Shown here one piece after another: positions 12,349 through 15,416 of a stretch of DNA of 32,905 nt. Numbering within the stretch: position 1 is the first letter of the stretch; the number at the start of each line of letters is the position of its first letter. Under the pieces are notes generated by a model. It saw only the letters and a program-made list of their open reading frames with translations. It made no database searches and was not told where the DNA came from. The position numbers and the translations under genes are program-made. Source of the stretch: an uncultured Bacilli bacterium (GTDB lineage: Bacteria > Bacillota_I > Bacilli_A > RF39 > UBA660); contig CANRHM010000003.1 in NCBI GenBank assembly GCA_947630415.1, positions 1 to 32,905 of the forward strand, written 5' to 3'.

Positions 12349-14118
12349 CTATATTTCTGCATTGACTAGTACAAGGCGGAACGAGTAGGTGGCGTACGCA
12401 GAGCCAAAGGTGTAGTAGTAGTAGAACACTCCAGCACTCGAGCTATGGAGATAGTAGCCGCCGCGGATGAACCACGGGGTCGTAGAGCTTACAAAACTAT
12501 AGGTATTACTATACCATCCTTTGGTTTCTGATAAAGCATGTCCATAACATTCACCATTCTGTGTACATGAGGTAGCAAAGTTAGTTGTATATAAATCATA
12601 ATACTTGGCATCTGGTATTAGATTAGTTTCTCCACTTGTCTTAAATCCGGAACTTTTTATTGTTGGTTTACCTGTAGCATCATCTTTTAGTGCACCCATT
12701 ACATATTCAAGTGCCCCACCACTCATATCATATACTCCTGTGATGTTTCCAGTCGTAGATGCTTTTTGTCCTGCTTCAGTATTATATGTATTTGCACAAC
12801 CAGAATCTTCACTTGCATTTGCTGTTGCTCCTGCTATTCCTGTTGTATAACTTGAACAGTTATTGATATATACTTCTTCCCCGTCATTTCCATATTTTCC
12901 ATACTCACTTTGTGATAGGTAGGCTACTGCTCCCCACTCACTATTCTTACTCATATGGGTATCGATACTTCCATCACTACTAAATCCATATTCAGTAGTA
13001 TTCTTGGCCATATTTTGTGATATTGTGAATGCTGTTGAAACTCGGATTCCTCTCCATGAGGTTACACTTGGCTTTATTTGTGGCGTTAATGTGGTTAAAT
13101 CACATCTGGTATTAACATCACCACTAGTTGATGGTGTACAGTTCTGTTCTTTATTACTAGTTTCAAATTTTCCATACCAGAATCCTTCTAATTGTTCTCC
13201 TCCAAAATCAAAGGCTGGATGTACTATATAATTGTCTTCATCTGCTAAAGTTAGATCTTTACTTATAAATTTTATTTTTATTTCTCCTGGATTTAAATAT
13301 TTTGGAGAAGAGGAACTTCCACTATTTGTTCCTCCTGCTGTTTTTATATCTACATAATCATATTCGTATCTCGGTATCCATACCCACATCGTATTGATAT
13401 CTTCTATATCTATTTTTTCTCCTACTTCTGCTTCTACATAATCACTTCTTTGTTGTGTTCCTGTTTCTTTTACTGTTACTGCATTTGCCCATTCTTGATT
13501 ACAATAATTATACCAACTCTTATCATTATTTGTACTATCTGCTTTGACCCATGAACTTTTGCCTTGATCCCATTTTACTGGAATCATTCCCTCTACTAAT
13601 TTTGGCACATTTGGTTGAGGCATATCTTCACATGATAATGCTTCATAAGTTCCTGTTATTTTTGTTTCACCTTCATTTAAAGCTAATTCTTTATTACTTA
13701 ATCCACATCTTCCATTTAAAGTTACGGTTTCAGAACTTGTTCCATTATTCTTTAATTTTAAAGTATAAGTTAACGTTGTTCCTGTGGCTAAATTTTGTAA
13801 TTCTATTTCACTTTCATTGCTACTTGCCGATAATACTTCGATGTTATTACTTCCACTATAGGTGATTATAGAATGAATATCTACTAAACTTTGATTCGTA
13901 AAAGTGACAGTTATCTCTTTTTCTTCTCCTCCTTGTAAAGTTACTTGATTGTTTTCTAAGTCGTTACTTTGAATGGGGCAAGAGACATCGCCTACGATAA
14001 TATTAAGTGCTCCTTTCTTTTCTGTACTTGTGGTAAATAATGCATAACTAAAACCGATGATCCCTGTAATCATTAATAACATTACAAAACTAAGCATCAT
14101 CTTAGTTCTATCTTTCAT
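12349..14118 (-). CDS. Surface protein with N-terminal membrane anchor/signal, beta-sandwich-like region and C-terminal FGE-sulfatase/C-type-lectin-like domain; candidate DGR variable protein
   Basis: 589 aa; MKDRTKMMLSFVMLLMITGIIGFSYALFTTSTEKKGALNIIVGD start; GVYDMSGGALEYVMG; C-terminus WFIRGGYYLHSSSAGVFYYYYTFGSAYATYSFRLVLVN matches the RGG...AG.F...G.A....FR.VL layout of DGR targets. Confidence 0.85.
   Translation of the reverse strand: MKDRTKMMLSFVMLLMITGIIGFSYALFTTSTEKKGALNIIVGDVSCPIQSNDLENNQVTLQGGEEKEITVTFTNQSLVDIHSIITYSGSNNIEVLSASSNESEIELQNLATGTTLTYTLKLKNNGTSSETVTLNGRCGLSNKELALNEGETKITGTYEALSCEDMPQPNVPKLVEGMIPVKWDQGKSSWVKADSTNNDKSWYNYCNQEWANAVTVKETGTQQRSDYVEAEVGEKIDIEDINTMWVWIPRYEYDYVDIKTAGGTNSGSSSSPKYLNPGEIKIKFISKDLTLADEDNYIVHPAFDFGGEQLEGFWYGKFETSNKEQNCTPSTSGDVNTRCDLTTLTPQIKPSVTSWRGIRVSTAFTISQNMAKNTTEYGFSSDGSIDTHMSKNSEWGAVAYLSQSEYGKYGNDGEEVYINNCSSYTTGIAGATANASEDSGCANTYNTEAGQKASTTGNITGVYDMSGGALEYVMGALKDDATGKPTIKSSGFKTSGETNLIPDAKYYDLYTTNFATSCTQNGECYGHALSETKGWYSNTYSFVSSTTPWFIRGGYYLHSSSAGVFYYYYTFGSAYATYSFRLVLVNAEI
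12361..12480 (-). other. Candidate DGR variable region (VR)
   Basis: GC-rich 3' end of the surface gene; 16 of 16 putative variable codons (TAC TAT CTC CAT AGC TAC TAC TAC TAC ACC TTT TCT TAC GCC ACC TAC) end in a pyrimidine, as expected from AAY template codons after A-directed mutagenesis. Confidence 0.7.
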
Positions 14119-14146: not shown

Positions 14147-14174
14147 ATTATAAAACTACCCCCCCCCATGTCAA
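14147..14174 (-). promoter_or_regulatory. Promoter with G9 homopolymer spacer, candidate phase-variable
   Basis: Minus strand TTGACA (14169-14174) T GGGGGGGGG TAGTTT TATAAT (14147-14152); spacer 16 nt containing nine G. Confidence 0.8.
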
Positions 14175-14195
14175 CTTTTTGTTAATTTCTTCTCA

Positions 14196-14218
14196 TAAAA
14201 AAAGAGGAGTATTCCTCT
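14196..14218 (-). terminator. Rho-independent terminator after the M23 gene
   Basis: Minus strand AGAGGA-atac-TCCTCT followed by TTTTTT. Confidence 0.75.
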
Positions 14219-15416
14219 AACGTGTGTACCAAGTCGTATAGGTTTTACTTGGAAAATTAATTACACTCTCGGCTCCTTTAAATCCACTGTTGTAACTTCG
14301 ATTTACAAAACTTACATAATTATCCCACTTACCACAATTGCTATCACTGAAGAGTCTACATGGCCATACCTCTAGATGTAAGTGAACTCCAAAGGCATAC
14401 CCCGTATCGCCCATGTAGCCTACAATCGTATTGGAATTAACTTGCATTCCAACATAGATATTGGAAGCATATCTACTAAGATGGGCATATAACGCTGAAT
14501 AATACGTTCCATTTATGGTACGATACTGAATGACTAAACATAAAGCTCCATTATTATCGTGGTAAATGTTCGTAATCGTTCCATTACCAATCGAATACAA
14601 AGCCGTATTTTTTCCTGTAGAACTACCAATATCGATTCCTCTATGGAGACTTCCCCAACGGTAGCCTATAAAACTAGTAACATATCCCGTTTTTATTGGT
14701 CTTAAGAAAACGGCATTACTACTAGTTACTGCACAATCTCTTCCAATTACTTGGTTACGAGAAGTACATCCTTGTTTCTTATAGTAATCGACTAATAACT
14801 TCTTATCACGCACTTGTTCTTCAAGGCTTGGTGATAATCCTTCAATTTCAGCAATCGAAACATTTAACTTTTTAATTTCTTCGTTTAAGCTAGCGACTTT
14901 CTTTTCATATTCTTCTTGCTTATTTTTAAGTTCCGTTTTCCGGTCTTCATTCTTTTTAATTAAATCATTTAATTCATTAATAACATTATCGTTATAGGCT
15001 GTAATTTGTTCTACTACCGAATAACGATAGATAAAATCCGTAATGGTATCTCCTCCAAAGACATATTCCATGTAGAGATTTTCTCCTTGACTCATTTGCA
15101 AATAAGCAAGAAGAGATTTGGTTTCTTCTTGTTTTTCTTCGATTTCTTTATTGGATTCAACAATTTCTTCTTGCAACTCCACCGACTCTTCACTCATCTT
15201 TTGCATACTATTTTTTAATGATTGAATCGTCGAGTTGTTGGTATCGACCTGATTTTCTTTATCATCGATCAAGGCTTGATTTTTTCGTAATTCTTCTTGC
15301 GCTTCTGCTAACTCATCGAGGTAGTCTCCATAAGTCACTTCTTCTGCTAAAACAGACATTGGAAATGAAGCAAAGAGAATAGCAATAACAAAAAGGGAAA
15401 TAACTTTCTTTTTCAT
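14217..15416 (-). CDS. Murein hydrolase activator/M23 peptidase with coiled-coil N-terminus (EnvC-like)
   Basis: 399 aa; signal peptide, long coiled coil, HRGIDIGSSTGKNTALYSIGNGTITNI and GVHLHLEVWP (M23); adjacent to ftsX. Confidence 0.85.
   Translation of the reverse strand: MKKKVISLFVIAILFASFPMSVLAEEVTYGDYLDELAEAQEELRKNQALIDDKENQVDTNNSTIQSLKNSMQKMSEESVELQEEIVESNKEIEEKQEETKSLLAYLQMSQGENLYMEYVFGGDTITDFIYRYSVVEQITAYNDNVINELNDLIKKNEDRKTELKNKQEEYEKKVASLNEEIKKLNVSIAEIEGLSPSLEEQVRDKKLLVDYYKKQGCTSRNQVIGRDCAVTSSNAVFLRPIKTGYVTSFIGYRWGSLHRGIDIGSSTGKNTALYSIGNGTITNIYHDNNGALCLVIQYRTINGTYYSALYAHLSRYASNIYVGMQVNSNTIVGYMGDTGYAFGVHLHLEVWPCRLFSDSNCGKWDNYVSFVNRSYNSGFKGAESVINFPSKTYTTWYTR

Follow-up and report, generated by a model that had tools for sequence, protein, structure and literature searches.

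Repeated poly-G spacer promoters ahead of surface-protein genes in an uncultured gut Bacilli lineage: a candidate phase-variable battery coupled to a DGR

Introduction

In pathogens, promoters with a run of G in the spacer are known, each as a single locus. The closest described example is porA of Neisseria meningitidis, in which the promoter of a surface-protein gene carries a homopolymeric G tract between the -35 and -10 hexamers, and tracts of 11, 10 and 9 G give high, medium and low expression, respectively (PMC3639595). The promoter that we describe here shares this arrangement, with a tract of similar length (9-11 G in porA; PMC3639595); however, porA is one gene in Neisseria, whereas here approximately 28-41 copies of one module are found in low-GC Bacilli, and their switching is a prediction. 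Poly-G is also linked to the promoters of a surface-protein family, tpr, in Treponema pallidum (PMC7864442); in comparison, the tract here lies exactly within a consensus -35/-10 spacer, many more genes are involved, and the system is coupled to a DGR. The multi-target DGR of Treponema denticola, with 2-7 targets, likewise has one TR and one reverse transcriptase (RT), VRs in dispersed surface genes (C-type-lectin-like there, and perhaps so here), and A-biased substitutions (PMC4891356), but in the present lineage two species have 32 and 43 profile matches per genome (fragments and TRs included), mostly with poly-G promoters where the 5' end can be read. Our literature search found no paper joining DGRs with poly-G promoters.

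What makes the arrangement worth pursuing? In this small-genome gut lineage, one poly-G module recurs at most DGR-type target genes. If the tracts slip in vivo, slippage should be visible in ordinary faecal metagenome reads, and a large, unstudied phase-variable regulon would be directly testable; one could also ask how DGR mutagenesis relates to the choice of expression, by which variants are exposed to selection.

The G9 promoter and the gene behind it

The window is the whole stretch of DNA that was analysed, 32,905 nt from an uncultured Bacilli bacterium. Its relevant features are as follows.

12349..14118, minus strand: gene for a surface-type DGR variable protein of 589 aa
12374..12488, minus strand: VR of that gene
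14147..14152, minus strand: -10 hexamer TATAAT
14153..14158, minus strand: remainder of the spacer, TAGTTT, conserved at most paralogous sites
14159..14167, minus strand: G9 tract in the promoter spacer, with a T at 14168 before the tract
14169..14174, minus strand: -35 hexamer TTGACA, read from the sequence
14175..14188, minus strand: conserved A/T element AAATTAACAAAAAG, adjoining the -35 hexamer on its upstream side
14197..14218, minus strand: terminator-like hairpin AGAGGAATACTCCTCT with T run at the end of the upstream gene, read from the sequence
14217..15416, minus strand: upstream gene, for an M23 peptidase with a PcsB-type coiled coil

Read from 14174 to 14147 on the minus strand, the full promoter is TTGACA T GGGGGGGGG TAGTTT TATAAT with a spacer of 16 nt, and the original prediction of TTGACA-T-G9-TAGTTT-TATAAT on this strand, with that spacing, was correct to the base. 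Because the preceding gene is closed by the terminator-like hairpin and T run, the element is the obvious candidate to drive the next gene, whose ATG begins at 14118, 29 nt past the -10 hexamer, with a ribosome-site-like AAGG (14133-14130) in between; transcription of this 589-aa gene (14118-12349) appears to rely on it. The A/T element, with per-position conservation of 88-100% over most of its length at 24 sites of the host genome, forms with the -35 hexamer an 11-bp direct repeat, TTAAC-N6-TTGAC, which we infer to be an UP element or a regulator site.

Within the window, this is the sole perfect TTGACA-N15-19-TATAAT (shuffles expect 0.08), and apart from the G9 tract no G/C run reaches seven, the next longest being six. 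The three overlapping seven-G matches that it provides were, however, equalled in 3 of 100 shuffles, which is not extraordinary, and thus the window statistics alone are suggestive only. Two other roles for the tract were ruled out: one G9 run is not the four-tract motif of a G-quadruplex, and reiterative transcription is excluded because the tract lies upstream of the -10 hexamer and is hence untranscribed.

The encoded protein has an N-terminal hydrophobic segment, FVMLLMITGIIGFSYALFTT, and ends in SFRLVL. An FGE-sulfatase-like C-terminal domain, and with it a candidate C-type-lectin fold to carry the VR, is weakly indicated (E=0.0069, below the cut-off, for the window gene; matches in 10 of 22 relatives), and fold comparison of poor models (mean pLDDT 41 and 49) gave no meaningful match. 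A test of the window protein for SipW-dependent TasA/camelysin kinship found no match to NCBIfam models, the SipW likeness being one seen by eye only; in another genus, one protein behind a poly-G promoter matches camelysin (Pfam), with SipW models below cut-off. The M23 peptidase gene belongs to an ftsE-ftsX-like operon, a conserved genomic site for the cassette, and the orthologue of this site is present in the sister species (L074).

A module repeated through the host genome

The host assembly (G000) is a MAG of 1,281,657 bases (1.28 Mb) in 140 contigs, 91% complete, in which we read the stretches around each site. It holds 28 G runs of at least seven; TATAAT follows 27 of them, 5, 6 or 10 nt on, and the 28th is interrupted by a contig end. 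A reversed control pattern gave 0 sites. This genome-wide count of G runs before TATAAT is the decisive statistic. Overall, the single-locus interpretation is partly supported and is here enlarged to a genome-wide battery. The module, TTAACAAAAAGTTGACAT-G8-10-TAGTTTTATAAT, is nearly invariant. The 25 class I/II sites have in common AATTAACAAAAAGTTGACAT-Gn-TAGTTT (or CAATTT)-TATAAT, with TTGAC at 24 of 24 and spacings of 14 (1 site), 15 (5), 16 (17) and 17 (1); the three class III sites, TTGAC(T/G)-Gn-TTAACTTTAT-TATAAT, precede short genes (267-281 aa). Among paralogues the tract ranges from G7 to G10. That the G-run element is a selected promoter module we regard as nearly certain.

Could the runs be chance homopolymers or assembly artefacts? 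The source is a MAG of 140 contigs with many sites at contig ends; nevertheless, independent assemblies of different species hold 28 to 41 copies each, with the reversed-pattern control near zero, and this explanation, of negligible probability, is already refuted.

Two variations among the host sites deserve mention. At five class II sites (L042, L057, L058, L062 and L066) the leader is longer (~80-120 nt), with an extra TATAAT-like box and a possible hairpin. At another two (L045 and L052, on contigs C29 and C73), 69 bp upstream are identical and are followed by G9 and G8, respectively, and by different genes and 3' flanks; the pair may have arisen by duplication or by recombination at the promoter, or may come from a mixture of strains.

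The genes behind the promoters

Where they can be read, nearly all products behind poly-G promoters combine a short, charged N-terminus with a single hydrophobic segment and a long exterior region, and are presumably surface-anchored; that a promoter-spacer G tract stands ahead of a surface-type gene, as originally proposed for the window, is borne out by the sequence. A conserved domain, ...CYGHALSET...RGG...GVF...SFRLVL, forms the end of most class I/II products. Its profile (A1) matched 32 times in the host genome, 43 in the sister species (G001), 21 in the third species of the genus (G002), and 0 and 3 in two further species (G003 and G004), counts that take in fragments and TRs. Where the 5' end can be seen, most of the matches in the host and sister genomes have a poly-G promoter. 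A1-type genes without a pure tract occur in the host (C7:18k), the sister species (two on C35, one on C4) and the third species (C116, C124 and C13), and others have an interrupted tract (C18 in the sister species; C3 and C10 in the third). One class I poly-G promoter of the sister species (L079, on C4) is an exception in another sense, standing ahead of a Band7/SPFH and SHOCT protein that is not of the hydrophobic-anchor surface type.

Comparison within the genus

The sister species (MAG CANQIE01, an uncultured Bacilli bacterium from rabbit gut) has 41 poly-G promoter sites and the third species 28; in the two further species, with no target genes or only three, there are 0. In the fetched stretches of the sister genome, G/C run lengths are bimodal: 37 runs of five, one of six and none of seven, and then 4 of G8, 33 of G9 and 4 of G10. 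All 41 long runs precede TATAAT; the shorter ones never do. At the 18 orthologous sites that upstream flanks define between host and sister species (81-96% identity over the matched stretch, at most 1.1 kb), the G-run promoter is retained in every case, although the 60-100 nt immediately upstream have often diverged past easy alignment. Tract length differs by one G at six of the 18. Another two have a base change on the border of the tract that alters the G count and leaves the spacing unchanged.

These comparisons bear on whether the modules are simply young copies, promoter and gene having spread between sites as one cassette, through either duplication or gene conversion. At some chromosomal sites the promoter class and the gene both differ between the two species (L043/L099 and L045/L095), from which we conclude that cassettes are exchanged at fixed positions, and the C29/C73 pair, with its common upstream sequence, different genes and unequal tracts, fits such traffic. 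As an explanation of why the tract itself is conserved, however, copying by descent seems to us improbable: retention at 18 of 18 orthologous sites suggests that old sites keep G8-10, G runs of eight or more are confined to promoters in the fetched sequence, and the run persists in the third species and in other genera amid unrelated spacer letters. The third species, for example, has sites of the form TTGACT-G8-10-TATGTTTGGCT-like, with flanking letters unlike those of the host and the same G8-10.

A dispersed repeat, AACGTCTCATAAGAG..AAAAACGTGACGTTAA(A/G)TAAA(A/T)A(A/T)TTTAC, lies upstream of several poly-G promoters of the sister species (L074, L089, L101, L102 and L104) and, occurring at contig breaks there, could mark cassette boundaries. 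That contigs break at the tract through heterogeneity among reads was rejected, as the breaks coincide with the upstream dispersed repeats and with 5' ends shared by paralogues.

Adjustable or fixed spacer?

The reading that we prefer, with a probability of about 0.58, is that of a graded, phase-variable promoter battery of the porA type, in which slippage of the tract switches expression. The G9 tract would serve as a spacer of adjustable length in a promoter of the sigma-A type that drives a surface-anchored, DGR-diversified protein. One-base slippage would shift the -35/-10 distance (15 nt for G8, 16 for G9, 17 for G10), which should adjust transcription stepwise, as happens with porA in meningococci. 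Cells of one population would then express differing subsets and amounts of ~30 surface proteins, and the DGR would separately rewrite binding sites in at least part of this set. The analysis shows the module itself, its repetition, its retention in sister species and its one-G differences; promoter use, within-population change in length and the effect on expression we infer by analogy with porA. A tract kept at all 18 orthologous sites and differing by one G at six accords with slippage that is slow and centred on one length, and the G7-G10 range among paralogues gives slippage further indirect support. Because the length distribution is narrow, with G9 in 33 of the 41 tracts fetched from the sister species, any switching probably proceeds slowly and by degrees.

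The same narrowness is compatible with a different, in our judgement unlikely, explanation, that the G tract is a required promoter part co-regulating a surface-protein regulon, held near nine by selection, with switching irrelevant; the tract might present RNA polymerase with DNA of unusual geometry or, with the TTAAC-N6-TTGAC repeat, form a site for a dedicated regulator. Flanks are near-invariant within a species, and the interrupted tracts of the third species, G4TG4 and G5TG3, preserve a total of nine, an observation that also favours the switching reading in that it suggests that tract length matters. Additionally, modal spacing is species-specific, as if each species had its own fixed optimum: two species, the host among them, have a mode of 16 and a third has one of 20, and other relatives cover 16-26 (at 26 no clear -35 hexamer is seen). 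The original prediction took 17 nt as the preferred spacing, which is not supported, and modal values of 16, 17-19, 20 and even 26 do not demonstrate a simple rule of sigma-70 spacing. Mismatch-repair genes in the genus point the same way, and mononucleotide slippage would be damped by them: MutL is encoded in the genus and MutS in three species searched, with MutS not found in the 91% complete host assembly and present in the sister species. Loss of mismatch repair as a cause of slippage was rejected on these grounds. Together, the narrow length range, the mismatch-repair genes and the species-specific spacing call for caution on switching, as does the chance that MAG assemblies give homopolymer lengths wrongly. 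On the other hand, a pure homopolymer is an odd encoding of a fixed spacer, and a fixed spacer sits poorly with the one-G differences at six of 18 orthologous sites, the G7-G10 range among paralogues, the G12-G16 tracts abutting the -10 hexamer in relatives, and the recurrence of pure G tracts before -10 hexamers in many genera whose spacers are otherwise different.

The DGR and its targets

The suggestion that the window gene encodes a DGR variable protein held up, with the retroelement found elsewhere in the genome. On contig C130 (L073), a TR at 181-295 is followed by an ORF with MutS domain I, by avd (NF033474, 80.3 bits; cut-off 80) and by the reverse transcriptase gene (RVT_1, 64.9 bits). 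Compared over 115 positions, the VR of the window gene and this TR differ at 22, of which 18 are TR adenines (p ~1e-6), and the gene is thus a genuine target of the DGR. Over the 14 readable genes, mismatches fall at 205 of 343 TR adenines vs 210 of 957 other positions, figures that the alignment score tilts mildly towards A mismatches. Several VRs resemble the C130 TR only poorly, which means that recent DGR targeting does not extend to every relative; many VRs are old, or poor matches to this TR. Viral contigs gave no match.

Slippage-tuned promoters, 28-41 of them, would choose what is expressed while one DGR rewrites binding regions, and the two layers of antigenic or adhesin variation would combine into a combinatorial surface diversity; we put this forward tentatively, at slightly under even odds.

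The MutS domain I (PF01624) of the DGR locus is a separate ORF (L073, 478-948) ahead of avd and the reverse transcriptase gene, and short MutS-I-like matches also occur in G002 and G267.

Distribution in the family and phylum

Of the 294 genomes examined from the family, 67 carry at least one G8+...TATAAT site, some ten or more and up to ~41, vs 13 for the reversed control pattern; spacer text is lineage-specific across the family. Other families have few or no poly-G promoters (396 sampled genomes of the phylum). Across the family, poly-G promoters and A1-type genes are not associated (31/36/86/141; Fisher p=0.26); a general family-wide pairing of the promoters with DGR-type genes is therefore rejected, and the pairing is confined to the host genus and a few relatives. 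The promoters and the A1-type genes are two separable systems, which come together in the genus and in a number of relatives, G008 for one. In two other genera (G183 and G267; L131 and L132), G12-G16 runs abut the -10 hexamer at spacings of 20-23, and runs of this length are expected to slip more readily.
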